From the NCBI GenBank assembly GCA_035235625.1, contig CP141147.1, forward strand, positions 4,143,001 to 4,207,000: a stretch of 64,000 nucleotides of DNA. Reading direction: 5' to 3'. Shown here piece by piece: positions 5,665 through 62,482 of the stretch. Both the position numbers and the translations under genes were made by a program. Within the stretch, counting starts at the first letter, position 1. The number at the start of each line of letters is the position of its first letter. This DNA is from Saururus chinensis (Eukaryota; Streptophyta; Magnoliopsida; Piperales; Saururaceae). The notes below the pieces were generated by a model. It had not been told where the DNA came from and did no database searches. It saw nothing but the letters and a program-made list of their open reading frames with translations.

Positions 5665-5673
5665 AGTGACTTA
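5665..5673. repeat. Target-site duplication, left copy (AGTGACTTA)
   Basis: AGTGACTTA here and GGTGACTTA at 21287-21295 flank the two inverted termini. Eight of nine bases match. A 9-bp duplication is the Mutator signature. Confidence 0.9.
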
Positions 5674-5760
5674 GAAAATTTTTTAGAAATAGACTCAACA
5701 AATGCCGGAATTACAAAAATAGGCAAGGAATTCTAGTTTTGCAAAATTAGACTTAGGCAC
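5674..5760 (+). repeat. MULE left terminal inverted repeat (87 bp)
   Basis: The sequence begins GAAAATTTTTTAGAAATAG and matches the reverse complement of 21200-21286 with only a few mismatches. Beyond position 5760 the two sides diverge sharply, which sets the TIR length. Confidence 0.95.
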
Positions 5761-5819
5761 ATGCGAAACTCCCACACGTATGATGCGAAATGGCATATAT
5801 GACCTTTCTCTTAATAAAC

Positions 5820-6111
5820 TCTCCCTCCTCGATTCCACTTTTGGCTTCTGGGTGATTGCAGTCGCCTCTCGCTGGAGATTGCCAACCAGATCCGCCTCTC
5901 CCCAACCCCCCGGCCTACTGATAAAGGAATGCGCACCTCGTCTAAGCGATCCTCCTCTCTCGTGCCCCCCCTCTCTCCCACTCCTCTGTCCTACCTCTAC
6001 CCACGGTCACGGTCCCATCCTCGGGGAGATTTTCATTGCCTTTGCGCCATTGGTGGTGCAGCTTTCATCCGTCAGCCCTCTAAAGCTTGGGCTTCATAAT
6101 CGATTGGCTAG
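5820..6111 (+). other. Putative first (5' UTR) exon of the mudrA gene
   Basis: This is a GC-rich island (CCTCGCTGGAG, many CCCCC and CCTCTC words) in an AT-rich element, just inside the left TIR. It ends at CTAG followed by the strong donor GTAAGATC at 6112. A matching acceptor TATTCAG lies at 10380-10386, directly before the transposase ATG, so one 4.3-kb intron would join them. An open frame runs across the exon, but I see no recognisable protein in it, and a leader exon is the simpler reading. It could instead be a captured host gene 5' end. Confidence 0.5.
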
Positions 6112-7253
6112 GTAAGATCCCTGATCCCTTATTTTTTGCATAACCAAATAAATATTAAGGTAGTTTCAATGATTTTTGGCTCAGAATGGGTGATATAATT
6201 TTCTTTGATATGATTGCTTCCACTCAGAAGTCTATCCATGAATTATTTACGATATTGTTTGAAGGTTTGTACTAGCTGCGATTTCATAGCAAATATTTGC
6301 ATTTGTCTAACTGAAAACTGTAAGTTGCTGACAGCAAATAATTTTCTCTATGTTATGTCAAATAGATACTTATTATATGCTTGTCCAGAAACATTTGCTT
6401 TGCTTGTTGTGTAATTTTTTTTATTTTCTCAGGTTCTGTTTTCTTGAGTTTTAATATTTGTTTTGCTGGCCACGTTGGGTTGTGGTAAGAGTTCCTCTGC
6501 ATTGTGATTTTTTTGGTCTTTGGCATGGTTGTTTCTTTTAGGTTCTCCTTTATGGCAAATTATCATGTATAATTTTCACTTCTGCGTGATATCACTACTA
6601 CCTTTTAAATTCTACTTTTTTGTATTGTAGCTCTGTTCTTGTAATGATTCCATAATAATTAGTTGCAATCATTGATTATAATTTGCAATCAGTGTTTATG
6701 GTTGCCTTTATGGTTGCCAAGTAGTTCATATTATGGTTGAGTTCATTATCTTGTTGGACTTAATGCTTAATATATGTGTTGATGATTATGTCTCTGCTAA
6801 GGACTTCAAATGAGCCTTTGGTGGGTTTAATTTAAGTGCAAGAGAAAATATTTTCTAAATAGTGGATTTGGAGGGAGGCTGTTTACTAATATTCTCTTTG
6901 ACAATAGGGAGAATTTTGTCCAACTGCTTCCTCTCCCAGCATGTTTTTTGCATCGATTTTTGGATTATTTCTTCATTGTTTTTTGTGACAGGGAATAGAT
7001 TTTTGTATTCATGTTTGGAAAAAATTCTTTAGATCTATATGGGTTGGTCACAGAAGTTGTTTTTTTTTCTATTTAAGTGGGGCATATATCTTAATAAATG
7101 ATAGAGAATAAATAGCACCATTTTATGAGCTTCTCATTAGTTTATTTTTATGATAATCAATTCTTCTCATATGCTTTCGACACACACAATTTCAGGGCAC
7201 TCGCTTTGGAACTTCTCAGGCTATATAGTTATATAGTTAATTCATTTACTTAT

Positions 7254-8245
7254 GACTATGATGTGATCTGATATCTAGCGAGTAGGAGACCATATAACCT
7301 AGTTTATATATTTAAAACAAAGTTAACTGATGAAGCCTAACTGTTGACTGGTAGATGGTATGAGGATTTTTATTTTTCAAAGTACATTGTGTGGTCATTA
7401 TATGTGCTCAAGATGGGTTTACAAGGAAGGTTTGAATGCTGTGATATGCTATATAAAGGTTAGTATACCATATGACCTAGTAGATGGAATAATACAAAGT
7501 TAACTGATACATCCTAACTGTTGACTGGTAGATGGTAAGAGGCTTATATTTTCCGAAGTACATTGCGAGTTTGTTAGATTTGTAATAGTTATGTTTACAT
7601 ATGGGTGGATATATAAGAGTGTTATTAAGTAAATATGTCAACTTGATCTTCTGTATATAAGAGTGTTATTAGTATGCTTGTAATATATTTTAATAGATGG
7701 AAAGTAAGTAAATGAATAGTATGTTTTGTTGTTAGGGTAAGTAAGGAAAATACACGTAATTAGTTATATTCATGCCTATGATGTGATCTGATATCTAGCG
7801 AGTAGGAGACCATATAACCTAGTTTATATATTTAAAACAAAGTTAACTGATGAATCCTAACTGTTGACTGGTAGATGGTAGGAGGTTTTTTCATTTTTCG
7901 AAGTACATTGTGTGGTCATTAGATGTGCTCAAGATGGGTTTACAAGGAAGGTTTGAATGTTGTGATATTCTATATAACGATTAGTATACCATATGACCTA
8001 GTAGATGGAATAATACAAAGTTAACTGATACATCCTAACTGTTGACTGGCAGATGGTAAGAGGCTTATATTTCCTGAAGTACATTGTGAGTTCATTAGAT
8101 TTGTAATAGTTATGTTTTACTATCAAGAGTATGGTGTGATATAATATTTATTGACGACGATACTGTATAACCTATAATATATCGTTAGAAGATAGTTAAC
8201 TGATTTCGATTAATTGTTGACTGGTAGTTAAGTGATTTCGACTAA
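7254..8245 (+). repeat. MULE left subterminal repeat array
   Basis: A block of about 340 bp (7254-7592) recurs almost unchanged 520 bp downstream (7776-8115), and a partial copy follows near 8160-8245. Five copies of the bipartite motif GTTAACTGAT-N4-CCTAACTGTTGAC start at 7322, 7499, 7842, 8020 and 8205 (the last is degenerate). The same motif occurs in reverse orientation in the right array. The array lies in the inferred first intron of mudrA. I infer transposase-binding sites, as in other transposons with repetitive subterminal regions. Confidence 0.85.
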
Positions 8246-8415
8246 ATCCATCCCTTCACTTCACCGCAGTACACTTACATGTCCACCTCCCCGAGGCATG
8301 CAAGAGGCTGTGGAGGACAAGCCAGGGCAGAGACCAAGTAGGTGGAGGCCAACATTGAGGTGCCAGACAATTTCACAGTGTATAGAGTGATTATGCTAGA
8401 TCATATGATGGGATG

Positions 8416-8706
8416 TATTTGGAGAGTAAACATTCTGCACATAACATAGTTTCTTCATTAGGCGTTGGTGGTTGTAGGTGGAAGTATAAAACCATAATTC
8501 CTATTGACTCGGATAATGAAGATGTTAAACTTAATGTGGGGAACATAGATATGGTGTTAAACCTTATCTATGTTTCCCACCTTACAATTAACATCTTCAT
8601 CGTCTCAGTGAATAGTAATTATGGTTTTATACTTCCTCTTGCCACCCCTAACGCTTAATGATTAAACTTTGTAATGTGCATGACTGATTGCTCTCCAATT
8701 CAGTTA
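8416..8706. repeat. Long imperfect inverted repeat (hairpin) in mudrA intron
   Basis: The arms at about 8416-8552 and 8566-8706 are complementary over about 140 nt, with a loop of only about 12 nt. Shared words include AAGTATAAAACCATAATT, GATGAAGATGTTAA or its one-base variant, and ACATAGATA at the loop. The left arm reads as a plausible protein fragment (CRWKYKTIIPIDSDNEDV), so this looks like an inverted duplication of a coding piece, possibly from a MULE transposase N-terminus. It would be transcribed as part of the transposase pre-mRNA and could fold into a stable stem. Confidence 0.8.
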
Positions 8707-9079
8707 CATGTAATCACATGCCGCACATCATAGACTGAATTATATTTTGTATCTTCAGCCATCACTTGGTCATGGTGGATAATGTATACCCAAATGTATT
8801 TAATGGTTAGCAAATGCCTTTGTATATAGTTTCGTTGATATTGTACAAGCGAATGTTTCATAGGGTTAGAACTGCCATAATTTATTGATTATGGTGAGTG
8901 GATTGGTGGAAATATAAATAGTTTTTAATGCATTCATATACAATTCCGTTTTTGTTATAATTATGATGATAAATATTATTTAGAAAAATATAAAATGATA
9001 AGCTACAGCTTCCCATATACGTCATTAAAATACACATAGAGAAATGTTATTTTCGTTGGTTGGGGCAATTACGAAAGCG

Positions 9080-9645
9080 TAATGTTAATATGAGCCTGGG
9101 TTCACGAACACTCGCATCTGGCCCTGTGCTATGGGCAATCAAATATACATCTGGATGGGGTATAATACTCAAATAACGGGCCTCATACAGCCCAGGCACA
9201 TGCATGTGTGCTTTAGCCCGGGATCATATAAATGGTACCGAAAAGTATAATATTAATAGGAGCTCGGCCTCTCGCGCATCTATGTGAGCCCGGGCTACAC
9301 GGCCAATCCGAAGTACATCCAATGGCCCATATTAATAAAAAAAACGGGTCTGATATAGCCCGTTGACATGCATTTGTGCATTAGCCAGGGCTCATCGAAA
9401 TGGTACTCTAAACGAAAAATTAATAGGAGACCGGAAATGCGCGCTTCTACTTGATCCCGGGCTCCACGGTCAATAGGATGTACATCCGAATATCCGATGG
9501 CCCATAAAACATAGGGTCATTTAAACCCTTGACTATTATGGGTCATCGGATCTAAATCGATGTAATTGCCCATAGAGCTATATGACCTATAAATAGATGC
9601 ACGTGTGCGCGGGCTACTATAAATTTTTTCCTTAATAATATATGC
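9080..9645. repeat. GAGCCCGGGCT-type MITE modules (degenerate, repeated)
   Basis: Three or four related modules follow each other (around 9090, 9255, 9420 and 9530). Each has a word like GAGCCCGGGCT, then a YGGCCMAT word, then a (T)ACATC(C/T) word and GATGGCCCAT. The right end, ACTATAAATTTTTTCC at about 9623-9638, resembles the right end of the foldback MITE at 43303-43506. I infer a degraded or tandemly inserted copy of that MITE family inside the MULE. Confidence 0.5.
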
Positions 9646-10386
9646 ATTTCGCATCATATTTCCATGGTGTATTAAGAGAAACAATAAGCATCGCCACGTT
9701 GGATAAGTCCACACGCGCGCTGCATATAGCAGACATGGGCCATACCTCGTCATAAATGTGAAAACCGTGAAAAACCCCGACGCACTTTCTGAACATCCCT
9801 CCGAAGGTTTCTTCCCATGCTAACTGCTGAGGTATTCTCTTATGGTTCTATATTCTCATCTCCCTAGTGGCAGATCAGATGACTTAGGTTGGCGGAAGGT
9901 GGATGTCGAATAGCAATCTCTGTATATGGACGCATGGAGGAAGACTCGGATAGTCACATTTCTACCTGTTGGTGTCCCTACCAGAACAGTGGTAATGTTG
10001 GATGTTGAGAATATGTTAATGTTTGTACTTTTGGATGAACTATTTCTTACCTGATATGCTCTGCAGATGAAACAACAACGACAGCTAATTTTTCGGTGTG
10101 GAGATGGTGGGCGAAAGCTTTAACTAATCCGTCTCAACTGATAACTGTTAGTAGCGTTTAACATAGGTAACTCGCAGGTACACAAATCTTGTCTTGTGTA
10201 TGTACGTACATGGGTCGGTGTGCCGCATGTACAGTTGTAATAGATGAAGTTAAGTTTGAGGTTAAGAATGAAATTGATGCCCGTTCACACAAAGTTGTTT
10301 CAATTTTAAGCACGGATATCATTGACTGATAAGTATCAACTGATAACTACCAGAGCTTAACTGACATAACTATATGGTGTATTCAG

Positions 10387-13300
10387 ATGGATACAGATGA
10401 GCAGCCTCTGTTATGTGTGTGGGGTGCGGAGTGGGATGCAAGTCGACACAAATATGATTGCTCCAATGCCAAGTCGGATCTCATATTTGTTAGAAGCTCA
10501 TTGACGTATGAATCCTTGGTGCCTATGGTTTACAAATTAATAGGATGTTGTAGCAGGGAATACTCTTTAAAGATGAGTTTTACATATCCTTTGGCAATCC
10601 CCATGGACGTACCTCCAACGAAAATATGTGATACTAGGACTCTTCAGTGTTTTGTGCGATATGCCAAGACCAGGCATGATGGTCTACCATTGATAATAAC
10701 CAAAGTGCGACATGTACATGTTTCCATGAATGTGAGCCAAATATTGATGTATTCGAATCAAAGATGAACGAGTCGATTATTTTCAATGATGCCGAAGAGC
10801 ATAGTAGACCTGCAAATGAAGTGAAGCATACGGTGGAAGTGAAGGAAGTAGGAGTGGGGCATGGCATTGAAACCAATGATAATTTGGCTAGTGCTGCTTC
10901 GGATATGGACATATTGTACATGAACACAATGGATTTCAGTGACGATCGGGAAGTAGATGACTTACTGCGTGAGGCCAGGGAGTTGGAGGCAAAGAATCAT
11001 CCTCCTGTTTACGTAAATTTGCAATCCGATTCTGATGAAGATCTAGTAGATGTCCCCATTGAAAGGCTTGAAGTGGATATGGTGAACATCTCCAATGTTG
11101 AGGAGAATAATGCCAACTCAAATGAGGGTAATGATGCCGGAGGAGCAAATGATGAAGTTAGTGGGCCAAACACGATGTATAACATAGACGAAGAAGATGT
11201 CATCTACAATGGAAGGGATATGCAGGAGCAGCTTGAGGAAGACATTGACATGGCTGAAAGAAAGTGGTAAGAACTATACAATCATTATTATTATCTGTTT
11301 TGTTTGCAAATTTATGCATGTGTAGTAACGGTTTAGTGGTTTTAAATGCAATGACGCTGAAGTACCAACAATAGCTAATGCAGTAATGTCACTCATAAAT
11401 GAAGGAGATGGTGGTGGGAGGGGGAAAGCACCACCATCAAGTAGCAATTTTGGGAAAACTTCGGCACCAAAACAACTTCAAAGGTCATTTCATGTGCTTA
11501 CATAGTTAGTTAACTGATTATGCCTAACTTATAACTGTTTGTCTCATTCTAATACCTATATAAATATAATCATTCAGCAAATTGGATGCAACGGTGTGTG
11601 CCAATGAAGAGCACAACATGGATATGGAGGTTGATTTGTATGACTATGGCAAAGATCCGAATGTGCTTCTACTGGGGCAAGAGTTTATGGATAAGGACTC
11701 TTTGAAGCTACATGTACACAAGTATGCTATGCATAATAACTTTGAGTTCAAGGTAAAATATTCAAATAAATCTCGATTCACAGTTGTGTGCAATGTGTCG
11801 GGATGTCCATGGAGGTTACATGCTGCTATAAGTAATGGGTGTAGTATCTTTAAAGTGAAAGCTATGAACAATGTTCATACATGTGGGAAACCAATATTTG
11901 GAGGAGATCATAAACAAGCAAAAGCGGGTATTATTGCTGACTCAGTAGTGAAACGACTTAGGAAACGTGTTGCTTATACTCCCAAGGATATTCAAGTTGA
12001 TGTCGATTTGGAATATGGAGTTAAGATGAATTATTCGAAGGCATATAGGTTGAAGGTTGCGGCGTTTAACAAGTTAAGAGGCTCCTACGAGTCATCGTAT
12101 GCTGAGTTGGCTACATACTTATATGAGTTGGAGAAGGCAAATCCGGGAACCTCAACTGCTATCCAGTACGACTCATCGGATCTGACATTCGAGCGATGCT
12201 TTGTTTCCTTTGGTTCAGCCATGGAGAACTTCAAGAGGTACATGCGACGTGTTATATGTATAGATGGCACATTCTTGAAAGGAAGGTACAAAGGGACTTT
12301 GTTCGTGATATCTACATTAGATAGTGAGAACCATATATACCCAATTGCTTGTGCTATCGGAGAAGGAGAGAATAATGATGCATGGGGATGGGTCCTTGCA
12401 CATTTGGAAACCCGACTTGGTTACTTGGAGGGCCTAGTGATACTTTCTGATCGGTATAGATAAATTAAATCACAAGTAGCTCAAATGTTTCCATATGTCG
12501 CACATGGATATTGTGCATTTCACATATCTCAAAACATGTTTGCACATTTCAAAGACAGAGGTTTGAACAGTAACTTCTTCAGGGCGGCTAAAGCATTTAG
12601 GCAGGAGACATATATGGAAGAAATGGCCATCATTGAGGAGAAAACCCCCGAGGCCTACAAGTGGTTAACTGGAATTGATAAGTCACGCTGGGTTAATGCT
12701 TACTTTCCATCGCCCAAGTATAATATAGTCACATCCAACCCATGCGAAGTCTTCAATGGAATGCTTAGTGAGTAGCGACACTTCCCCATTGTCAGGATCA
12801 TTGAGGCAATCCGTTTGAAGGCTCAAGAGATGTGGTACAAGCGTGGATTGGAGGCACAACGATGGAAGGAATACTTGACTAAATATGCTGAAGCAAAGAT
12901 TCAGAAGTGCAATGAAGCAGCTAGAGGGATGATTTGTTATCCCATAAGTGGCCATGAGGTCTTAACTAGGTCCGAAAGAGGGGATGATCAAGTTGACCTT
13001 ATCGAAAAGACTTATACATGTGGAAAGTTTCAACAAATGGAGTTGCCCTGTGAACATGCGTTGGCAGCATGTGGCCACAGAAGACTAAATTATGTAGACT
13101 ATTGCTCCCCGTTCTACACAACGGAAACTTATAGGCAAATCTATAGCAAGGGAGTTTATCCAGTACTCGAACATAAAAGATGGGAGACTCCTGAAGATGT
13201 GAAGAGCCTTAAGTTGAGGCCTCCAAAGGATAAGGCACGACCGGGCCGGATAAAGAAGAAGAGAATTCTATCTCGAGGTGAAGAAAAATGGAGAGTACAA

Positions 13301-13543
13301 TGTCGGACGTGCAAACAATATGGTCACTATTGCAATACTTGTACCACGGTAATTGGAGAGAACCCAGTGGGGGGTCATACTCCTCGTCCATCCATAGCTA
13401 CACCCGCTTCATCTCATGGCCAGCCCCCATCACCACCTCATGCTAACCAAAAGTTGTCAACATCTAAACAATTCCCACAGGTAGTAGACAAGTTGGGTGG
13501 TAAAGAAATCAGGAAGATGCGTCATCCATGTGCAATCCAGTAG
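10387..13543 (+). pseudogene. mudrA: mudrA-type MULE transposase, three coding exons, interrupted
   Basis: Inferred coding exons are 10387-11266, 11337-11483 and 11578-13543, with GT-AG borders whose phases agree. The order is an N-terminal region, an acidic stretch (DSDEDLVDVP, EEDVIYNGRD), and a MuDR zinc-type DNA-binding block at 11680-11890 (VCNVSGCPWRLHAAI, then VHTC). The RNase-H-fold DDE core follows: the first Asp in ICIDGTFLKG (12263-12265), the second in LSDR (12449-12451) and the Glu in NPCEVFNGML (12746-12748). Then come a SWIM finger (TCGKFQQMELPCEHALAAC, about 13015) and a CCHC-like knuckle (CRTCKQYGHYCNTC). Three lesions are visible: a frame change near 10730, TAA at 12461-12463 and TAG at 12773-12775. 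The reading frame is otherwise continuous, so the decay is recent. The start is the ATG directly after the acceptor at 10386. Confidence 0.88.
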
Positions 13544-14853
13544 AAGATCAGCCATCTAACCCCAAAGGGGAAGAGAAAGAAGAAAATGAGACAAGTGGCT
13601 GAGCTCAATGCATGTACGCTTGAGGACAAATTGCGCAAGAGACCAATCGCAGTGAACAAAGTCGCACCATTGTAGTTTGCTTGACGACATATTTTGGAAA
13701 ACTTTTATTTCTGATTGTGCCACAATATGTTGGCAATTCAACCATAAATTCCATGTGCTGAAACTTCATCTATCAACATGTTTTGTAGTCTAAATTAATA
13801 TAAAGCAATACTTCAAGTACTAGTTTATAATAGGAATCTCCGTATTTATCACCAGGCAAATTGGTCATTATAATGTACATCGTCAATCCCAGGTTCCCGT
13901 GGTGATTGTGAAGCACTGAAGCTTCAAGCATATGAATGCTGCCATGCTATTTTGCCCTTTTTTCTTTTTGGAAAATTCTTGCTCTTTGCCTTGATATAGC
14001 TTCCTCAATTGCAACGAGTCCAAGTCTACTAAAAGTGTGTAATGTAATGAACAAATTTTAGTAGGCCAATTTAGTGTAAAAGTAGAACTGCATTTCCATT
14101 TTATGATCTTTAACTGGCACAGCTTGTGAGATGTATGAACAATCAAACAACATTTTAATACATCCTCTTTTACACGGATTGTAAATGTTAATTTACCTGA
14201 TTAAGAAAAGAGCAAAAAAATAGAGGCAACAAGACAGTAGTATATCTTTTGGTCTCCATTCAGCAGATTCATGACTGAGACATGCCTCCCACTCCATATT
14301 GTTTAATCTAGAATTTAGGTGGCCAGTGGCCAATTGCAAAATCTCACTGATACCTTTCAGAGATGACCAGCCACTGCACGCAAACAACATAATCTCTTCG
14401 TCCTGCAACACCTATCTCATTGAGGAACATTTTGGACCATATCTTATGAATCACAAATTCTTAACTGCTCAACAGCCTTCATTACTGCACATGCACATTT
14501 TGGACCATATCTAACCAATCAGGAACAATATCTTATTCATATCGTACCATCAAATACCGCAATGCCACCTGTCCATTATCATCTATAGTTAACCGATGTG
14601 TTATCAGAACAACGTCATACAAAGAATATTGATTTCTCATCAATCAACTTCAACCAAAAACTATATGAAACCATCAAATTCTATTAGTCTTGTAACAACA
14701 CAAATAACTTCAAGATTCACCTTAAACATTAATCAATTATGGTACTCCTCCATAAAGTATTCATACAAACCATCAATGAAACACAAACCGAATCACATAG
14801 TCAAGGACAAACACTATCAAGTTAATCCACATCTATTGTCAAGAAAATGGTCG
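13544..14853. other. Convergent intergenic spacer inside the MULE; no gene
   Basis: The transposase stop and the Ulp1 stop face each other across this AT-rich spacer. It should hold both 3' UTRs and polyadenylation regions. I see no coding frame with family likeness and no strong repeat. Confidence 0.6.
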
Positions 14854-17800
14854 TCATATGGAATTTTGCAGAATTTGGTATGCAACCCTATGTCTCATTA
14901 AGTGAATGTCCTCTCCGGTAAAGCTAAATCGGTACCCATGCGACAGGTACCACATATAAATGCATACGCAGACACCGCAATCATTGTTGTTGATTTGTTG
15001 TGGGTGTCCGGTTATCTCTCTCACCGGGAGGCGCAAGGTAGCAACTCTTGCATATCCCAATTTCAACAAAACTATTGGCAAAACATGTCTGAGAATCGCC
15101 AATTTCTTGTAGTACTGATCTACCTCAACCCCAGAGTAATATGGGTCCATGATGTATAGGACATCCTTCCTCAAGTCTAGAAGAATGAGAGTCCAATGGT
15201 TACCATTTACATGAAGAGGGAAGTGGTGGACCTCATATTCCCAGAAGTCTTTCTCATTCACCTTCATCAACTTCATCATATTGGTCGGAACTTCTGGCCA
15301 TGCATCTGCAATGGCGGCTCTGGAGACAGTTGCATCATTTTCCTTCATCGATGCGTAAATGCTGAGGAGGGTAGATGCATCCATCCTCATAAGCTCCTGT
15401 GGAATTAGAAACAGACGTCAGTCAAGTAGTTAGCCGTTGTCAATTAAATATGATATTAAAATCAAAAGAAGGCCTACCATAAAATGTACAAGATGGAAAG
15501 ATTGCTTATTAGTTGGGTTCCCAAGGGCCTTCTTCCGCAATGCCAGCACAGACGCATCAATATGCTATATCAAATGAATCGAACATCGAATTAGTATAGT
15601 ATATAATAGGGATGAAAATCTGAATCACTATTATTGTGTACAACTAAAATTTGCACATACATTATCCCAAAGCCACCTATGCTGATGCATAATAGACCGT
15701 ATAAACTCAGATGTCAGCTGGATTCCACCAATTGCCGACTAGCTGTTCACATATGATTGCTCCGAATGTCAACACATATTTATGGCACATCATAATATAA
15801 ATTTAATCGATATTGAAATGAAATGTGTATGTAACCGAGTAATATGCTATAACTCACTCAGATTTCCAACCATTTCTAAGGCTCTTTCAAAGGGTTTTTT
15901 CTTCTTCTGGTGTTAACTTATGTGGTTTAGGACATGCCACCTCCAGCAATGCTATCTGTGAGAGAGCAACGAGTCCACATATATTGCTTCTGTGGACTTC
16001 TTGCCCTGCTGGATTTTGTTCCTTCGATTAGTTGGCAGTACCTAAATGTCCCCCTTCTTCAAATAGATCCAGTAATTGGTTCACCAATTCAATGTTAGCC
16101 TGCCCATCTTCTTCTCCCTCGAATTGTACATTGTTGTTGTTTAAGGGCTCGCTAGCAGTCTCATCCTCTTCCACATCACTTGGTCCCCTCACCAACCTCC
16201 TCTTGCTTCTCCTTGGCGCCATGTAAGGGGTCCTTACATATTTGCTGGCAGTCCTCTTCCTCCCATGGACATCGGAGGGCACAACCTCTTTGACTCTTGG
16301 GGCATCACTCCCAATGTCAACCCCTGCCTCCCCAACCGCCACACCAGATGCACCTTCAAATGGGAGAACTACATCTATGACTATTTCCTTTGAAAAATTG
16401 CACGTGTGAGTAAAAGTGCACATCATAATATAAAAATATTAGCATAATGTGCGGCAATAACAAACTACATCAAAAGCACGTCCTTCATATGAATAAAATT
16501 TTGACGTAACTAACTTGCGGACAAGAAGATTCATTGATGGGGTTTTCATGGGCTCCATCGTCAGCAACATAATCATATCCAGCATCCTTCCCGTCCTAGT
16601 CAATATTGTAAACCATACTATGATTATTGTCGAAATACAAGAATAATAAAACTTAACACTAGTCAGAAGTCATGATATTTAATTGACTGTAGCTAACCTC
16701 AAATGGGTCTGATGACCTCCCCTTCATGGACAACAAAGCTGAAACATCTTCAGACAATTTGTCTACCTTGGCCTCCAACCGGTCAACTGTGCCCGCTAGC
16801 TTGACTAATGTGTCCTTTATCCAGTCCAATTGAATATGCACATTTTGTCTTTCTGGAGCATGGGGTTGTCCACTTCCAACATGCCACACCTCATCAACAA
16901 AATAAACAACTGTTTCATGACCTCGCTGAGGATCCGCCTCCATATCCACTTCTACTTGTTCCTCTGGCAGGGCACCACCGACAGGGAGCTCATATTTATC
17001 AAAAATTATCCGGTCCCCCTTCAGAAATTTCTTCAGCCCTATAGCGGATTGAACAATCTCCTCATCAGACTCAGCTTGTGTTAACTCCAAGCGCCTGTGC
17101 ACCAACACCTAAAAGACAAAAAAATATGTTCATTATCAGTCATCATATATGTTGTTTGCAAATTATAAGTCATTCTAAGTCGACAAACAACAATATATTA
17201 CCTTCTCTCCGCCAAAAATTACTTTGTCAATTGCATCATAACTAGGCTTCTTATAGTTGGCCCAATTCAGCATTCTAGGATAAACATCTTGTACTCTTCT
17301 CGCACATAAGTCCCCAAGCAGCGGAATCCTTTCCATTGCCCAAACCTTCATATTCAAACCATGGACATAAATGTCATAATCGCATATGCAGCATAGTACA
17401 TTAAAACCTCAATCAAAATAACCAAAAAAACGTACCAACAGTGCCGGTACAAATCCATGCACAATGTAAATGGTTTTGGTAAGGGACTTCCTTGCTTCCT
17501 CCAAGCCATGGAGGGTGTCCCAATATGCAATATTACCCCATGGATATGAATCGAATTCCTCCACATCATCAGCCAACAAAAAAAACCGCCGGTCCACCTT
17601 ATGATCCCACCCTCTGCCCACAATGAAAGAAGCCAACACTAGTATGCGGGCCAACTTCACTGCGTCTTCATCACTTTTGCTTATGATGATCTTCTGGCAT
17701 ATCTGCTCCTTCGTAATGTGAAGCTTCTCTTTGCCAAACACCCTACAAAGTAGGGAGTCCTTTCTCAAAACTTTTGGCACTGTTGGAAGGGATGGGAGCA

Positions 17801-20669
17801 CATCAGCCATACGTAGACCGGTTACTTGGGCAAATTCCGTGGGTAACAACTTCATTGAATAGGCTTCCGTCACTTGAAACCTATACTCTCCTTGATGCAT
17901 TTTTATGATGTGGTGCAAGGCTTGAAGTGGGAACATGAACTTCTCTATGTCCAGCTGCATGTATTTGCCGAAACATGATCTTTCGAATAGTGTTGCTTGT
18001 CTTCTATGCTTATTTAAATGCTCTTTGAGCCTCCGTATGTAAGCATATGTTGATTTGGGTTGAGGGTCGCCCTAATGGGCTCTACCCTTATCACTTTCAA
18101 CTGGCTTGAAGATCACTTCTGCATTACTTGCTAGCTTCACCCTGTAATGTTTAACAGTTCACTTAAAATGGTCATTACTTGGTATCTTCAAGCTGAGCAT
18201 GGGTCATAATTTGGCATGTAACCCACACGCACAACATACATATCGGCAAATATTTAAGTGAACAACACCTATTTTGAATCACACAATCAAATTTTGTAGT
18301 ATATCAAACACATGCACCAAACACACAATATCAGTTTGACAATATAACTTATGTACACTGTCCAAATAATCAGACACACTATATCAGTTAGGCCCTATCA
18401 GTTAACATTGTTTTAAGCAGGTGTACTTGCTTATAGGGTCTACCCTTGATTTTCATAATATCACATATCACAGAGGATGGTAAAAAATGGACACTAGTTA
18501 GCAAACAATTTACATATATAGCCTACAGCCGACACAATGCACTTTGTACACCAATAAAAGATGCCTACAGACTAACAGTCAACAGTTAGGCCCTATCAGT
18601 TAACATTGTTTTAAGCAGGTGTACTTGCTTATAGGGTCTACCCTTGATTTTCATAATATCACATATCACAGAGGATGGTAAAAAATGGACACTAGTTAGC
18701 AAACAATTTACATATATAGCCTATAACCGACACAATGCACTTTGTACACCAATAAAAGATGCCTACAGACTAACAGTCAACAGTTAGGCCCTATCAGTTA
18801 ACATTGTTTTAAGCAGGTGTACTTGCTTATAGGGTCTACCCTTGATTTTCATAATATCACATATCACAGAGGATGGTAAAAACAAGGACACTAGTTAGCA
18901 AACAATTTACATATGTAGCCTATCAGCCGACACAATGCAATTTGTACACCAATAAAAGATGCCTACAGACTACCAGTCAACAGTTAGGCCCTATCAGTTA
19001 ACAGTATTTTAAGCATGTGTACTTGCTTAAATGGTGTACCCATGATTTTCCTCATATCATACATCATAGAGAAGGGTAAAAAAAGGCCACTATTGAGCAA
19101 ACAATTTACAGATGTAGCCTACGGTCGTAACCAATGCAATTGGCACAGAAATAAAATATGACTAAAGCCTACCCGTCAACTGTTAGGACCTATCAGTTAA
19201 GCTTGTTTTAAGCATGTGTACTTGCATAAATGGTCTACCCTTGATTTTCCTCATATCATATATCACATAGAAGGGTAAAAAAAGGCCACTATTGAGCCAA
19301 AAATTTATAGGTGTATCATAAAGCCGTAGACAATGCAATTTGCTCAACAATAAAAGCTGCCTAAAGACTACCCGTCAACAGTTAGGCTCTATCAATTAAC
19401 ATTATTTAAGCATGTGTACTTGCTTAAAGGGTCTACACTTGAATTTCATCATATCACATATCACAGAGAATGGTCAAAAAAGGATACTGTTGAGCAAACA
19501 ATTTTCAGATGTAGCCTACAGCTGTAGCCAATGCAAATTGCACATAAATAAAATATGACTAAAGTCTACCAGTCAACCATTAGGACCTATCAGTTAAGCT
19601 TGTTTTAAGCATGTGTACTTGCTTAAATGGTCTACCCTTGATTTTCCTCATATCATATATCACATAGAAAGGTAAAAAAAAGGCCACTATTGAGCCAAAA
19701 CTTTACAGGTGTAGCATAAATCCGTAGACAATGCAATTTGCACAACAATAAAAGCTGCCTAAAGACTACCCGTCAACAGTTAGGATCTATCAATTAACAT
19801 TATTGACGTGCATGTGTATTTGCTTAAAGGGTCTACCCTTGATTTTCATCATATCACATATCACAAAGAATGGTCAAAAAAGGAAACTGTTGAGCAAATA
19901 ATTTTCAGATGTAACCTACCAACTACATTTCGACCCTTCCTTATTTTTGTCACTTTGTTTTACATTCCGTAAAAGTCATCTATGTATGAATCTACACAAA
20001 TATACAATCGAGAGCATGAAAGACCCACACTCGTATGAATCTACACAAATATAAGCCTAACTATATCAAGTCTAAAGCCGGCACAATGTACTTTGCACGT
20101 CAATAAAAGATGCCTAAATCCCACCAATCAACAGTTAGGCCCTATCAGTTAACCTTGTTCTAAGCATGTGTCATTTGTTTAAATGGTCTACCCTTCACTA
20201 AGCACCAAACACACAATCTACATTTGACAAGATCAATATACCAGACTATATAGATTTTATTGACCACACAATTTATTTTCAAGACTAAACTATAATGTAC
20301 CTGTCAACAGTAAGGCCATATCAGTTAAATTCGTTTGTGGCATACAATAATGCTTCTAACAGAGCACGGCTCCAACTTAACTAATCCGCTATATTTTTCT
20401 TCATGTATCCTACATACAATATTTTTTTGCATCAGAGATTTCCGTTTTCAAAATTTATCATGAGATCACATACTTCAAATATTTAAATCAAATTTATCTT
20501 ACGACATCACATACACTAATCATAGCAGTACATACGTCCAATTTACACACCTATTATGAATTTCATCACACAATCTCAATAAATTTCAAACCAAAGCATA
20601 TAATACAGCTAAACAAGATATTCGCTTCTTCAATTAACCATACATAGTTGGAGGATCTCACCTTGCCAT
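14854..20669 (-). CDS. DUF1985-Ulp1 (C48) SUMO-protease-like gene of the MULE
   Basis: Exons I can place are 20662-20669 (ATG GCA AG, donor GTGAGA), 17436-18141 (DUF1985-like block ending GFVPALL), 17202-17345 (starts VWAMERIP), 16698-17108 (a likely coiled-coil stretch LVKLAGTVDRLEAKVDKLSEDV), 16515-16595, 16042-16387 (basic and acidic linker), 15661-15738, 15478-15564 and 14854-15396. One exon or more between 15740 and 16040 is unresolved. The last exon carries the C48 core. Its catalytic His is in NGNHWTL, Asp in MDPYY, Gln in QQINNND and Cys in NNDCGV, all present. Family enzymes cleave SUMO-like proteins, and the role of such genes in MULEs is unknown. One in-frame TAG at 18072-18074 in exon 2 would cut the product short unless translation starts at Met 17960. 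The start codon rests on splice-phase agreement. Confidence 0.82.
18330..20340 (-). repeat. MULE right subterminal array, unit about 198 bp, about ten copies
   Basis: Core motif copies occur near 18385, 18580, 18777, 18977, 19172, 19375, 19570, 19770, 20125 and 20305. The first three units are nearly identical at a 198-bp period, and later ones diverge or are partly lost. On the reverse strand each carries GTTAACTGAT-N4-CCTAACTGTTGAC, the motif of the left array, in inverted orientation relative to it. The array fills most of the inferred first intron (18142-20661) of the Ulp1 gene. Confidence 0.9.
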
Positions 20670-21190
20670 TTATGTCATCTTCTATTGATCAACGGATGGG
20701 GAGATTGGTCAGACGGCCAAGTGAAGAGGCAGAATGTAGATTAGGGCAAAACACCGAAATGCGGGATACGGCCGGCTGGAAGCGAGGGACGGCGGGAATG
20801 GAGCTTAGCAAAATATCTTTGGAGGGGGGAAAGGTGGCCGCAATGTATTTATCCGGTTGTCAAATGACTGCCGTAGTGAGATCGCCGGCATGGATAGCGA
20901 AGGATGGAACAAAATGGGAACTTTCTCTGCAATACCGGAGGAGCAAAAAATGTGGGACTGGATGACCGATAGCGGAGAAGAGGAAGGTGAAGGATGGGAT
21001 ATAAAAGGCTGGATGAGGGGTTGCCGAAAGGGAATGCGATTCTTGTAACGGTGAGAGCGCTCGAGAGCGGTCGCAAGCGCCGAAGGGAAAACTGAAATCT
21101 GAATTTTGGGTTGCACTCGGTGAAGTGGGTCGAGTCTATTCATTTCCATTGCTTAAGGGTATTCTTGGCAATTCAAGCGCGCGTGCGGGT
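20662..21190 (-). promoter_or_regulatory. GC-rich promoter and first-exon region of the Ulp1 gene
   Basis: A GC-rich island sits just inside the right TIR and mirrors the island at 5820-6111. On the minus strand it leads to ATGGCAAG followed by the donor GTGAGATCC at 20661. The phase matches exon 2 at 18141, so at least the 3' part is a leader exon with a very short coding tail. A short upstream ATG-ACA-TAA frame directly precedes the chosen start. Confidence 0.6.
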
Positions 21191-21199
21191 AAGTGGAAC

Positions 21200-21286
21200 G
21201 TGCGTAAGTCTAATTTTGCAAAACTGGAATTCCTTGCCTATTTTTGTAATTCCGGCATTTGTTGAGTCTATTTCTAAAAAAATTTC
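21200..21286 (-). repeat. MULE right terminal inverted repeat (87 bp)
   Basis: Reverse complement of 5674-5760 with only a few mismatches. It is followed directly by the target duplication copy GGTGACTTA at 21287-21295. Confidence 0.95.
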
Positions 21287-21295
21287 GGTGACTTA

Positions 21296-26852: not shown

Positions 26853-29800
26853 CAAAACTGAGACTATCTTATGTTTATTGGAACAGAAATGGCTATAGAG
26901 GGTATGAATTTGACTTCGGTCATAATTCCCACTCCGGTGAATGTTCCTATTCAAGTTAGGGAAAAACCAGATAAGTTTAGTGGTATAGACTTTAAAAGAT
27001 GGAAACAAAAGATGTTCTATCTTACCACACTAAATTTGACCTGATTCCTTCAAGAGGAAGTACCCATTCTCATTGAGGAGAAAAAGGATGATAAAACGGC
27101 TATTGCGGTAGTCGATGGATAGAAGTATGTAGATTTTTTATGTCATAATTATATCCTTAATGGGTTGGACAACACCTTATATAACGTATACAATCCGATG
27201 AAGAGTGCCAAGGCACTATAGGAGTCCTTAGACAAGAAGTACAAGACAGAGGATGTTGGAACGAAGAAATTTGTGGTCGGTAAATTTTTGGACTTCAAAA
27301 TGATGGACTCTAAGACAGTGATCAATCAAGTTCAAGAACTCCAAGTCATCCTGCATGACATTCATGCAGAAGGTATGACTTTAAGTGAGTCTTTCTATGT
27401 GGCTGCAATAATAGAAAAATTATCACCTTCCTGGAAGGACTTTAAGAATTATTTAAAGCATAAGCGTAAGGAGATGAACATAGAAGACTTGCTTATAAAG
27501 TTAAGGATAGAAGAGGACAACCGTACTTCAAAAAAGAAAACTGGGGGTCTTGGCATGGAAGCCAAAGCTAATGTTATAGAACAAGAGTATAAAAACAAGA
27601 ACTTCAACAACAAGAAGAGGAAAATCTTGGTGGACAGTCAAACAACGACTCCAACAAAGCCAAGTTCAAGGGCAAGAACTATGTGTGTGACAAGCAAGGT
27701 CATAAGGCTAAGGATTGTCGCAAGTGGAAGAAATAAGAGGATTCCAAGAAGAAAAATGCACAAGCCAACATGACTAAAGTGGAGAATCTCTCTAATAATG
27801 TGAATGACATCAACCTTTCCGCTGTGATTTATGAAGTGAACATAGTCACTAATACAAGAGAATATTAAAGACTAAGAGGGAGAAGATGATGGACCTAAAC
27901 ATAGTAAACATGCTAGAACATCAAAAACTTTTGGTCCATACTTTTTGACTTATTTGTTAGAAAATAAGCCTCAAATCTTTAAGGAAGTCATGTCCTCTCT
28001 AGAAGCACAATATTGGAAAGAGGCTATAAATAGTGAAATTGAATCCATTACACAAAATCATACTTGGGAGCTAGTGGAACTTCTACCAGGGAGTAAACAT
28101 CTAGGGTATAAGTGGATATTCAAGAGGCAGATGAAGACCGATAGATCAATTGAAAAATATAAAGAAGCTAAACTTTTTTATCAAAGGATACAAGCAAAAG
28201 AAAGGTTAAGATTACTTTGATATATATTCACCGGTCATAAGGATAACTTCTATTAGGATGTTAATCACTATTGCTGCTTTGTATAATCTTGAAATACATC
28301 AAATGGATGTGAAAACCACATTCTTAAATTGTAACATATGAGAATATATATACGCAACAACCTGAAGGGTTTGTCGTGCTGGGTCAAGAAAACAAAGTAT
28401 GCAGACTTGTTAAATATCTCTATGGGCTTAAATAAGCACTTAAGCAATGACATGAAAATTTTGACAAAATAATAATGTCAAATGGATTTAAAATTAATGA
28501 ATGTGACAAATGTGTTTATGTCAAAGAAAGACCTGGTGGTTATGTCATTGTATGTCTGTATATAGATAATATGTTCATTATTGGTAGCAATGATGATATC
28601 ATTAAAGCTACCAAGAAGATGCTAAACAAACAGTTTGTCATGAAGGATATGAGTGTTGCAGATGTTATACTAGGAATGAAAATCACTAGAACATCTAATA
28701 GATATGCATTATCTCAATCTCATTACATTGAAAAAATCCTATAGAAATTCAATAAGAATGATAATCATCCAGCGAGAACACTTGTAGATGTAGTATTGTA
28801 CTTAAGCAAAAACACTGGTGAGAGTATATCACAACTTCAATATTTCCAAATTATTGGTAATCCCAATTACATCATGAATTGTACGAGACCGGACATAACA
28901 TACTCAATAAGTAAACTGAGTTGAAATAATAGCAACCTAGAGACAAACCACTGGAAGGTTGTAGTCAGGGTTCTTAGATATCTAAGATATACCTTAAACT
29001 ATGAACTACATTTTACAAGGTATTTAGTAGTACTAGAGGGTTACTGTGATGCAAACAGGATATATGATACAAAAGACTCAAAATTCACAAGTGGGTATGT
29101 GTCTTTACTCTTGGAAGTGCAGTAGTGTCTTGGAAATCCTTTAAACAAACGTGCATAGCAAGATCCACAATGGAACCTGAATTCATTGCACTTGAAAGAG
29201 CAGGCAAAGAGGATGAGTGACTTCGTAATTTTCTAGAGGATGTTCTAATGTGGGGGAAACATGTGCCACCTATTTGCATCCATTATGATAACCAATCGGC
29301 TATAGGAAGGGCACAATGTAACTTATATAATGGTAAGTCTCAACATATACGTAAAAGACATAATACTATAAAATAATTGATCTCTAGTGGAATAATTTTT
29401 ATTAAGTACGTTAAAAGAAAATATTGTGGATCCGCTTACTAAGGATTTGAACAAAGAACAAATGAGCAGTTCATTGAGGGGAATGGGCTTGAAGCCTATA
29501 CATTAAGAGTCACCATAATAGCAACCCAACCTAGTTAGCTGGAGATCCTAAGATTTAAGTTCAAAGATACAACCAAATTATGGGGGATTCAAGAGGAATC
29601 ACTATTGAGATAACATCTCGTCCCCATTCCTACGATGAGATTGTGATGCTTGCATAGTGAATCAGGGTAAGCTTTGTTTTTAATGGTTTTTATAGCTTGA
29701 ATTAGTTCAAGTGGGGTATGAAAATATATTCCTAATAAGAAGCATCTATATGAGTGTGAAGGGGTCATTTCTATGAAGATTTTAAGGCTAAATTTTATGG

Positions 29801-33531: not shown

Positions 33532-34574
33532 AACTACAACAAAATATACTATTAGCTATGTAAACACAAGCGTCGCTAAAAACCACTACTTGTGACGCAT
33601 ACAAAGGAGTCGCAAAAAAATGAACTATTAGTGACACATAATAATATACATCGCTAATAGTCATTTTTTAGCGACGCTTAACTTAAAGCATTGATAATAC
33701 TAACCATATTAGCGACGTTTCCCAATAAATGACGCTAATCAGTTATGATATTAGCAACACTTTAAGCAAGCATCGCTAAAAGATATTTTTTTTAACAAAA
33801 AAGGAAAAAAATATAACTATTAGTGACACTTTTGATTAAGTGTCACTAATAGGTTAATCAATAGCGACGTGTATTAGCAAGCATCGTTAATAGTTGTGAT
33901 ATTAGCGATGTTTAATAAAACTGTCCCTAATAGTAATAAATTTAAAATAAAAAAATTAGAACTATTAATGACGCTTTTAATTAAACGTAGCTAATATCAT
34001 TGATAATAGCAACAATATTTACAAGTGTTGCTATTAGTTTTTTTTAAAATTAATTTTATGTAATAAATAATTATATAATAAATAAATATTAAAAAATTAA
34101 AATAAACTTCTTAAATATAATATATTTTATTTAATATTTACTATTTGTATATATAATAAATAAATATTAAATTTTCAAGAAAAGGTAGTGAGATAGAGAA
34201 GAGGGAGAGAGGGGACAGAGAGGGGAGAGAGAGAGGAAAGAGAAAGAGGAAGAGAGAGGGAGAGAGAGAGGATAGAGAGAGAGAGGGAGGAGAGAGGAAG
34301 AGAGAGAGAGGAGAGAGAGGGGAGAGAGGATTAAAATTGTTTATTATAAATTATTTTTAAATTTTCTAAAAAAATACATATCAGCAACTCATATGCGTAT
34401 GCATTGCTACTAACTCTAGGTAGTAGCGACGCATACGTGTATGTGTCACTAATATCATAGTGTATTAGCGATGCATACACTTATACGTCGGTACTACCCT
34501 AAGTTAGTAGTGACGCATATGGTATGCGTCGGTAATAACAATTTTTTTTATTTTAAAAAAAATTAAATTAAAAG

Positions 34575-35367
34575 AGATAGAGAGAGAGGAGGGAGGAGAG
34601 AGCGAGAGAGAAGAGAGACAGAGGGGAGAGGAAGGGAGAGAGAGAAATGGAGGAGAGAGGAGAGAGAGAAATGGAGGAGAGAGGGGATGAGGAGAGAGAG
34701 AAAGAGAAAGAGGGTAGAGAGATGAGGGGACAGAGAGTAGAGAGAGAAAGAGGAAGAGAGAGAGAGGATGAGGAGAGAGAGAAGAGAGAGAAAGAGGTAG
34801 AGAGAGAGGACGAGGGAGAGTGAGAAGAGAGAGAAAGAGGGGAGAGACGGTAGAGAGAGATGAGGGGAGAGAGAGAAAGAGGAGGGGAGAGAGGAGAGAA
34901 AAGAGAGGTGGAGAGATAGAGAAAGAGGAAGAGAGAGAGGGGATAGGTGAGAGAGAAGAGAGAGAAAGAGAGGAGAGAGGGTAGAGAGAGATGATGGGAG
35001 AGAGAAAAGAGAGAGAAAGAGGAAGAGAGAGGATGAGAAGAGAGAGGGGGGAGAGGGTAGAGAGAGAGGATGAGGAGAGAGAGAAAGATGGGAGAGAGAG
35101 AAGAGAGAGAAAAGGTAGGGAGAGAGGATGAGGAGAGAGAGAAGAGAGAGAAAGAGGTAGGGAGAGATAAGATGAGGAGAGAGAGAGAAGAGAGAGGAAG
35201 AGGGGAGAGATAGAGAGAGGAGAGAAGAGAGAGTGGGGAGACAGGGTAGAGAGAGATGAGGGGAGAGAGAAAGAGGGAGAGAGAGAGAGAGGAGAGGAGA
35301 GAGAGAATGTGGGGAGAGTGGGTAGAGAGAGAAAGAGGAGGAGAGAGAGGGTAGAGAGAGATGAGTG

Positions 35368-35401
<34 letters not shown>

Positions 35402-35568
35402 AGACTGAAGAGACAGTAAGAGGGGAGAGAGGGTAGAGAGAGAGAGAAGAGAGAGATGAGGGGAGAGAGAGAAGAGAGAGAATGAGGAAGAGAGAGAGAG
35501 AGGAGAGGAGGGAGAGAAGAGAGAGAGAGAGGAGGGAGAGAAGAGAGAGAGAGAGGGGAGAAAAAAAA
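34575..35568 (+). repeat. About 1 kb of nearly pure purine (GA-rich) tract
   Basis: Almost uninterrupted G and A (GAGAGAG, GAGGAGAGAG, GGATGAGG words) on the plus strand, with smaller tracts at 34195-34328 and 35768-35928. The long open frames on the other strand (Ser/Leu-rich) are by-products of this composition, not genes. Confidence 0.95.
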
Positions 35569-36061
35569 TAAAAAAAAATGTATAGTAGCGACACATACTG
35601 GTATACATGGCTACTATACTCGTGTAGTAGCGATGCATAACCCTATGCGTCGCTACTACCCGAGTATCGTAGCGACACATACTAGTATGTTCGCTACTAC
35701 CTTATGTAGTAGTGACGCATACTCTTATGCGTTGCTACTACAATTTTTTTAAAAAAAATTAAATAAAAGAGAGAAAATGGAGAGAGAGGAGAGAAAAGAA
35801 GAGAGAGAGAGAAGAGAGAGTGAGAGAGAGAGGGAGGAGAGATAGAAGAGAGAGAGGGAGGAGAGAGAGGAAGAAGAGAGGAAGAGGGAGAGGAGAGAAG
35901 GGAGAGAGAGAGGGAGAGAAAGAGAGATTGTAGCAATGCATACTTTATGCATAGCTAATAAGTAGTGTATTAGTGATGCATATATTATGTGTCACTACTA
36001 ACTAAAGTATTTGCAACACATATATTTTGCGTAGCTAATACATGCTTTTTTTCACTAGCGC

Positions 36062-49931: not shown

Positions 49932-51893
49932 CTCTATCCTTCCTCTCTCTCCTCCCTCTCTCCTCTCTCTCTCTCTCCTCCCTCTTTCTCTCTCCACCCT
50001 CTCCTCTCTCTCCTTCCTATCTCTCCTCACTCTCTCCCCTCTCTCTTCTCTCACTCTCTTTCCCCACTCTCTCTCCTCCCTCCCTCCACCCTTTTCTCTC
50101 TGTCTCTCCTCTATCTCCTCTCTCTCTCCCTCCTCCCTCTACCCTATTCTCTCTCTCTCCCCCTCTCTCTATTTTAATTTTTTTTTAAAAATAAAAAATA
50201 AAAAAATATTAGCGACGTATATGCTTATACGTTGCTAATACTAAGGGTATTCGCAACGTATATTCTATACGTCACTAATACGCATGGGTATTAGCGACGT
50301 ATAGCGATATACGTCACTAATACGTAAGGATATTAGCGACGTACAGGCATATACGTCGCTAATACATTTTTATTTTATTATTTTTAATTAATTTTTAAAT
50401 AAAAAATAAAAATAAATAATATAAAAAAATTTCCTCTCTCTACCCTTTCTCCCCCCTCTCTCTCTTCTCTCTCCTCTCTCTCTCCACCCTCTTCTCTCTC
50501 TCCTCTCTCCCTCCACCCTCTCTCTCCTCTCTCTCTCTACCGTCTCTCCTCTCTCCTCTCTCTCTCTACCCTCTCTCCTCTCTCCTCTCTCTGTCTCTCT
50601 CTACCATGTCTCCTCTATGCTCTCTCTCCTCTCTCTGTCTGTCTCTACCCTCTCTCTCCACCCTCTTCTCTCTCTCTCTCCTTCTTCTCTCTCTCTCCTC
50701 CCTCTCTCTCTCTCTACCCTCTCACCTCTCTCTCTCCCCTCTCTCTGTCTCTCTCTACCCTCTCTCTCCTCTCTCTGTCTCTCTCTACCCTCTCTCTCCA
50801 CCCTCTTCTCTCTCTCTCTCCTTCTTCTCTCTCTCCTCCCTCTCTCTCTCTCTCTCCTCTCTCTCTACCCTCTCTTTACCCTCTCTCTCCTCTCTCTCTC
50901 CACCCTCTTCTCTCTCTCTCTCCCTCTCTCTCCTCCCTCTACCCTCTCTCGTCTCTCTCTCCCTTCTATCTCTTCTCTCCTCTCTCTCCTCCCTCTACCC
51001 TCTCTCTCCTCCCACTCTCTCTCCCTCTCTCTCTTTCTCTTTCTCTCTCTCTCCTCTCTCTCTCTCTTCGATCCCTCTCTTCACACTCTCTTTTAATATA
51101 AATTATATTTTAAAATTAATAATAAAATTTAAGAAATAAATATATTATATATAAATAGTAAAAGTTTAATCTATTATTAACACTAGTTTTTATTAAAAAT
51201 TTAATATTTATTTATTGTATATACAAATAATAAATATTAAATTAAAAAATATTATATTTAGGAAGTTTATTATAATTTTTTTAATATTTATTTATTAAAT
51301 AAAATTAATTAATAAAACTATTAGCGACGCTTGTCAATAAGCGTCCCTATTAGAAATAGTATTTGCAACGCTTATTTACAAGCGTCGCTAATAATTCAAA
51401 ATTTTTATTTTTAATTCATAACTATTAGTGACGCTTTTGTAAAGCGTTACTATTGAAAACACTATTAGCGACGCTTAAGAAAAACGTCGCTAATAGTTAT
51501 ATATTTTTCTTTTTTTATTTAAAAAATTTATCTTTTAGAGACGCTGTTTTATAAGCGTCGCGATTGCGAACACTATTAGTGACGCTTACGAAAAGTGTTG
51601 GTAATAGTTATATTTTTTTCTTTTTTTATTTAAAATATATATCTTTTAGTGACAGTTGTTTAAAGTGTCGCAAATAGAGGAACTATTAGCGACGCTAATA
51701 ATTAAGCGTCGCTAATATTATTAGTATTAGAGACGCTTTAATCTAAGTGTCGCTAATATATGACTATTAGTGACGTATACGAAAATACGTCGCTAATAGT
51801 TCATGTTTTTTGCGACACTTTTTTATTCTTCGCAAATGGTTATTTTTAGCGACACTTAGTTATGCGTTGCTAATACTACATTTTGTTGTAGTG
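49845..51893. mobile_element. CACTA-type element relic, right end only
   Basis: It ends ATTTTGTTGTAGTG at 51893, the right-terminal sequence of the intact element at 47022. Dense AGCGACGY inverted words cover 50205-50370 and 51320-51880. Pyrimidine tracts of 330 and 660 bp (49845-50172, 50430-51090) show it lies opposite to the purine tracts of its relatives. The left terminus is missing. It is followed directly by a Gypsy RT fragment, so it inserted there. Confidence 0.75.
50430..51090 (-). repeat. Pyrimidine (CT-rich) tract, about 660 bp
   Basis: Nearly pure C and T on the plus strand with CTCTACCCTCTCTCC units repeated many times. The Ser/Leu-rich frames in it are artefacts. Confidence 0.95.
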
Positions 51894-62427: not shown

Positions 62428-62482
62428 GATTGAAGCAGAAAACGGAGATGCTTTTGTCCTGTTCTATGGTGAACACGAGACC

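Follow-up and report, generated by a model that had tools for sequence, protein, structure and literature searches.

The closest described counterparts of the locus reported here are the target arrays of VANC anti-silencing proteins in the Arabidopsis elements VANDAL21 and VANDAL6. According to passages of Hosaka 2017 (PMC5735166), VANC21 binds YAGTATTAY and the targets of VANC6 carry AGTTGTCC or AGTTGTAC. The same passages describe the VANC21 motifs as short, dense and of one orientation in introns and in intergenic and terminal non-coding DNA, state that VANC motif regions are often tandem repeats, and assign the domains DUF1985 and DUF287 to the VANC proteins. Passages of Sasaki 2023 (PMC10398659) report that the terminal inverted repeats (TIRs) of VANDAL elements are degenerate and that MURA hypomethylates the TIRs of MuDR. 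Parts of a 2026 review (PMC13317346) state that some VANC genes possess Ulp1 as well (KIU/Kaonashi), that these occur in non-TIR MULEs and that their targets are motifs belonging to the same kind of element. For grapevine MULEs, passages of Benjak 2008 (PMC2528002) report a ULP1 region that follows the transposase, lies in either orientation and occurs in TIR as well as non-TIR MULEs, with 9-bp target site duplications (TSDs) where these were found; a motif array goes unmentioned in those passages. Source excerpts on other MULEs describe a motif of about 32 bp inside the TIR as the binding site of maize MURA, and short subterminal tandem repeats within the TIRs of mosquito MULEs.

In the 64-kb window, i.e. 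the whole stretch of DNA analysed, an element of 15.6 kb (5674-21286) was delimited by scanning for inverted termini together with target duplications. Its parts are as follows.

5665-5673: left TSD, AGTGACTTA
5674..5760, plus strand: left TIR, 87 bp, 96.6% identity to 21286-21200 reversed
7247..8260, plus strand: left motif array, a duplicated 520-521-bp unit with 5 motifs, upstream of the transposase gene
10387..13543, plus strand: mudrA-like transposase gene with DBD_Tnp_Mut, MULE and SWIM domains
11267..11577, plus strand: inferred GT-AG intron of the transposase gene, splice sites and frame assigned by eye; joins the frames and contains the motif at 11509
14854..18071, minus strand: probable single DUF1985-Ulp1 gene, DUF1985 in 17412-18071 and Peptidase_C48 in 14857-15417
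18374..20343, minus strand: right motif array, 9 full motifs and 1 incomplete inner copy at a mostly 198-200-bp period, upstream of the DUF1985-Ulp1 gene
21200..21286, minus strand: right TIR, 87 bp, 96.6% identity to the left TIR
21287-21295: right TSD, GGTGACTTA

The two TSDs, read from the printed flanks, matched at 8 of 9 positions, with GTGACTTA exact. The MURA-type transposase domains and the approximately 9-bp TSD with 87-bp TIRs identified the element as a MULE, and its nearly identical TIRs differed from the absent or degenerate ones of VANDAL elements. The initial annotation had placed the arrays at both MULE ends, whereas the TIRs were located further out and were free of the core motif, which ruled out the arrays as the MULE termini; each TIR contained only two RACT words, 58 bp apart. 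The motif was thus not inside the TIR as in the MURA type. The first motifs lay 1,648 bp (left) and 957 bp (right) inside the termini, and the full array sites were 0.96-2.7 kb from them. Inverted repeated units on both sides are shared with the MULEs with tandem TIRs in the passages of Ferguson 2012 (PMC3310237), but the repeats here were not TIR copies and were situated 0.87-1.56 kb inward of one TIR pair. Elsewhere in the 64-kb window, nothing similar to any part of the element was detected at E 1e-4. A separate observation concerned the segment 20361-21286, where the CpG observed/expected ratio was 1.03. The right array next to it gave 0.29, and the remaining stretches that were measured gave 0.34-0.57; the segment may represent an unmethylated end or a promoter that was captured.

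The transposase gene was recognized by DBD_Tnp_Mut (E-value 6.3e-15), MULE (2.2e-10) and SWIM (1.6e-4). Near 10764 its reading frame shifts or a small intron intervenes, in-frame stops were present at 12461-12463 and 12773-12775, and the open frame resumed after 13543, extending to 13672. On the opposite strand, DUF1985 (2.9e-11, 44 bits with a cut-off of 35.1) and Peptidase_C48 (Ulp1, 8.1e-16) were detected, and the Ulp1 region had His, Asp and Cys in the usual Ulp1 contexts, as judged by eye. We infer that the two domains belong to one gene and one protein, with one in-frame stop at 17409-17411, following DUF1985. As both genes contained in-frame stops, this copy need not make either protein. 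DUF287 gave no match in the pieces scanned, ~15418-16030 and the gaps between pieces lying outside the scan. A search of viral_contigs gave no pattern match for the transposase and C48 queries and 5 stretches for the DUF1985 query, none of them confirmed. The DUF1985 exon had no credible match among solved structures (one, E 0.25), and its single-sequence fold was discarded at a mean pLDDT of 34.9. The two genes converge, so that each array is upstream of one gene. Between them, a 27-bp direct repeat (89%, 68 bp apart) was seen at 14427-14521.

The core motif GTTAACTGAT-N4-CCTAACTGTTGAC was found 15 times in the window with up to 3 mismatches, 7 of the 15 matches being perfect, and zero matches to the gapped core were obtained in 100 dinucleotide shuffles. 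Five matches were at 7322-8221 (+), nine at 18578-20329 (-) and one at 11509 (+), and the gap was 4 bp in each. The array copies were as follows.

7322..7354, plus strand: motif, perfect core
7499..7531, plus strand: motif, perfect core
7842..7874, plus strand: motif, perfect core
8020..8052, plus strand: motif, perfect core
8195..8227, plus strand: motif, 3 mismatches, spacing retained
18572..18604, minus strand: motif, perfect core
18770..18802, minus strand: motif, perfect core
18970..19002, minus strand: motif, perfect core
19169..19201, minus strand: motif, 2 mismatches
19368..19400, minus strand: motif, 1 mismatch
19566..19598, minus strand: motif, 3 mismatches
19766..19798, minus strand: motif, 1 mismatch
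20121..20153, minus strand: motif, 1 mismatch, flanks of the unit diverged
20297..20329, minus strand: motif, 2 mismatches, flanks of the unit strongly diverged

These results confirmed what the initial annotation had described as a gapped core in mirror-orientation arrays with a constant 4-bp gap, holding two TAACTG words 14 bp apart. Its count of about five left and ten right copies corresponded to five on the left and nine full copies plus an incomplete one on the right, the latter beginning near 18374 and ending after the second half-site; the plus-strand copy at 11509 was missing from it. The unit lengths of 520 and 198 bp were also correct, with the refinement that the left unit of 520-521 bp holds two motifs (spacings of 177, 343, 178 and 175 bp) and that the right period of 198-200 bp is not kept by the outer two right copies, whose spacings are 355 and 176 bp. 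The statement that only the core was shared turned out to be too strong, as left and right units aligned in inverted orientation over ~60-130 nt at ~70-79%, the likeness outside the core including TTAAAACAA before it and CTGGTAG after it. Within the window, every occurrence of the full motif fell in non-coding DNA of this element. Searches of viral_contigs and genome_contigs returned 0 matches to the exact motif; as virus and prokaryote collections, they have little power to reveal a plant element, and gene content points to a plant host. A foldback with 120-bp arms (81% complementary, 5-bp loop) directly followed the left array on its inner side, at 8436-8680, and is perhaps a MITE or a source of hairpin RNA. 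In the outer left region, two AACTG words 7 bp apart at 6308-6320 (+) resembled only slots 3-4 of the motif register described below.

The likeness of left and right units beyond the core agrees with a reading in which the motif has no function, tandem-repeat expansion and inverted duplication having spread one sequence whose core was conserved by chance. Conservation was expressed as mean pairwise identity over the 23 core positions, the dispersed copy at 11509 being in none of the sets compared. Among the seven tandem right units, the core scored 0.923, the rest 0.81 and the gap 0.74; the core ranked 4th of 172 windows, one non-overlapping window reaching 0.938. For eight right units including the two outer ones, the values were 0.902, 0.61 and 0.70 with rank 1/161. 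In the right units the N4 gap was not freer than the rest, which, like the rank among the seven tandem units, fits the absence of function. The core stood out once diverged units were compared: besides the eight right units, the five left units gave 0.948 for the core, 0.55 for the rest and 0.35 for the gap (rank 1/151), and 13 units from both sides gave 0.918, 0.50 and 0.44 (rank 1/151), the eight-unit and 13-unit sets omitting the unit at 18776, which is nearly identical to that at 18578. Moreover, three sites in otherwise unrelated sequence retained the spacing. Chance or pure array homology was ruled out as the origin of the core over the divergent units and by these isolated copies, with the caveat that the seven tandem units alone do not single it out, and a motif devoid of function is very improbable. 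Part of the motif conservation could still be inherited array homology. The earlier proposal that the core looks selected as a protein-binding site is supported by the comparison of diverged units and by the isolated sites, and less so by its rank within the recently formed tandem units.

Two features had been overlooked previously: a third half-site (TTGACTG, at +21) and the motif copies that lie in non-coding parts of the transposase gene. The site combines three RACT words, all on the same strand, at 0, +14 and +21; in a register of 7 bp, the N4 gap corresponds to the slot that is left empty. Alignment of 17 sites, 14 from the arrays and three dispersed, gave a heptad consensus of approximately TTRACTG-ATNNNNC-YYAACTG-WTRACTG. 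RACT was found in slots 1, 3 and 4 in 15, 13 and 12 of the 17 sites, respectively, and in slot 2 in none, while AT directly followed slot 1 in all 17; the sites were picked by likeness to the core, and these slot counts are descriptive and not a test. All 17 aligned sites (8 plus, 9 minus) were oriented in the direction of transcription of the nearest gene. CHG sites (CTG/CAG) were present in each half-site, which might hint, as an idea only, at methylation-sensitive binding. The dispersed sites, all in non-coding DNA of the transposase gene, fitted the exact geometry.

10119..10151, plus strand: dispersed motif upstream of the transposase ORF, matrix score just above the best control
10321..10353, plus strand: dispersed motif shortly before the transposase ORF, geometry exact, array PWM score not significant
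11509..11541, plus strand: dispersed motif inside the likely transposase intron

With a PWM built from the 14 array sites, 11509 scored 27.1 and 10119 scored 13.3 against a top random score of 12.8 in 40 controls, and 10321, at -3.8, was not significant by this array-trained matrix. A second matrix including the dispersed sites yielded no further full site (best new score 8.8, controls up to 21.8), and the DUF1985-Ulp1 gene had no motif among the 32 best matrix matches. The pattern RACT-N10-AACT-N3-RACT matched 10 times in the window against 0.05 expected, an expectation that is optimistic because the degeneracy was fixed after the dispersed sites were known. With the same post hoc choice of words, 273 spacings were compared outside the arrays; the 10/3 spacing occurred 3 times, always in the element and on the plus strand, whereas none of the other 272 occurred more than once (19 matches in all). 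The distance spectrum, subject to the same choice, showed 4, 5 and 4 RACT pairs at 7, 14 and 21 bp on the element plus strand once the arrays were excluded, other distances averaging 0.5, although one pair (13083/13097) was in transposase coding sequence and distance 17 also gave 3. On the element minus strand outside the arrays, the counts of 1, 1 and 3 against 0.65 were at most weak, and outside the element there was no enrichment (3, 4 and 4 against 5.0). TAACTG, counted per kb over both strands, reached 7.96 within the arrays and 6.43 for the intron (311 bp, 2 words), with 1.88 across 8261-10386, 1.69 for the stretch separating the genes and 0.19 beyond the element. The presumed transposase exons (2,975 bp) held one word and the Ulp1 gene 0; a single TAACTG within the element, at 8701, ran in the opposite direction. 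The region upstream of the transposase gene also contained a partly diverged tandem duplication (9171-9487, offset of 167-168 bp, blocks 76-79% identical), followed at ~9588 by TATAAATAG, a possible transposase promoter. A bacterial promoter scan of the left array was set aside as uninformative for plant DNA.

The motif had been taken earlier for a transposase-binding site. The data support a protein-binding site as such; a MURA-like transposase binding subterminal sites to bring the two ends together appears an unlikely reader. The DNA-binding domain of MURA-like transposases is of the WRKY/GCM1 type, TTGACT resembles the W-box, and TnpA acts likewise at the subterminal repeats of En/Spm. The arrays are inverted towards both ends of an element that encodes DBD_Tnp_Mut, and the mosquito repeats mentioned above, in the excerpts describing them, offer a precedent. 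Since MURA hypomethylates the MuDR TIRs in the passages of Sasaki 2023 (PMC10398659), a transposase could also bind and de-silence at once. However, the well-conserved TIRs carry no motif, whereas the MURA site in the source excerpt lies in the TIR, the full array sites are deep inside the ends, and end pairing would not profit from copies placed before the transposase ORF or within a likely intron. A second candidate is the DUF1985-Ulp1 protein, whose Arabidopsis relatives bind such arrays.

TAACTG is a MYB core and TTGACT a W-box core. These matches, together with the position of the arrays upstream of both genes, agree with arrays that serve as promoters or enhancers of both convergent genes and are recognized by MYB or WRKY factors of the host. 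We consider this quite unlikely, as a 33-bp site of three half-sites at a fixed 14/7 spacing is far more specific than either core, TAACTG is scarce outside the element, and one copy is in a likely intron.

On balance, we favour the motif as the target of an element-encoded protein, most likely DUF1985-Ulp1, acting like the VANC anti-silencing proteins. Its location in non-coding DNA upstream of both genes and probably in an intron, in one orientation per gene and absent from the TIRs, is better explained by a VANC-like target than by a transposase site. Judging from the sequence, the DUF1985-Ulp1 protein is predicted to bind the motif, and binding would be anti-silencing. The protein or an oligomer would read the three RACT words on one strand at their fixed spacing. 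Acting in cis, or in trans when supplied by sister copies, it would be drawn to positions along the element by the clusters upstream of both genes and by the site in the likely intron. Once recruited, it would remove silencing marks, allowing both genes to be transcribed. This mechanism leaves the role of the Ulp1 (SUMO protease) part unexplained.

As in the VANC21 and VANC6 arrays, this element encodes DUF1985 and contains dense one-orientation motifs in a likely intron and other non-coding DNA, arranged in variable tandem repeats. Unlike the 8-9 bp VANC21 and VANC6 motifs, it has three half-sites over ~33 bp at fixed spacing, with only a vague ACT/AGT likeness to the Arabidopsis targets. It further differs from VANDAL21 and VANDAL6 in its intact TIRs, in the absence of DUF287 from the pieces scanned and in a motif spacing of mostly 175-200 bp. 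The combination of a VANC-type gene and a Ulp1 domain in a MULE recalls KIU/Kaonashi, whose hosts the consulted parts of the review describe as non-TIR MULEs, in contrast to the TIRs found here, and the ULP region downstream of the transposase is shared with grapevine MULEs. A 2022 abstract by Sasaki is said to stress motif sequence, density and helical periodicity, and such periodicity would fit the 21 bp as two turns. No report of the motif was found in the literature searched, a scope that did not include Sasaki 2022, and we make no claim that it is unpublished.

The fuller description, put forward tentatively and with somewhat less than even confidence, is that of a TIR-bearing MULE with an anti-silencing system of VANC-like type, based on DUF1985-Ulp1 and directed at a heptad-spaced composite target (slots 1, 3 and 4) mostly repeated at about nucleosome spacing (175-200 bp) upstream of both genes. 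If true, it would provide an exact predicted DNA target for a DUF1985-Ulp1 protein whose element has retained its TIRs, counter to the VANDAL pattern in which VANC genes go with degenerate TIRs, and would open a sequence-specific route to studying the removal of plant DNA methylation. With a fixed 0/14/21 geometry, the code linking protein and target is open to direct testing, and the system would also suggest that the spacing of a motif, beyond the word itself, can be the conserved part.

Elsewhere in the window, long Ser/Leu-rich open frames, several frames at once, arose from CT-rich repeats at 34504-35701, 50403-51139 and 53387-54001 and are probably not genes. A Copia-type gag fragment was detected at 27222-27773 (+; Retrotran_gag_2, E 1.3e-15), and a Transferase-family open frame (PF02458, BAHD-like; 440 aa from stop to stop, E 1.4e-77) at 61141-62463 (-).
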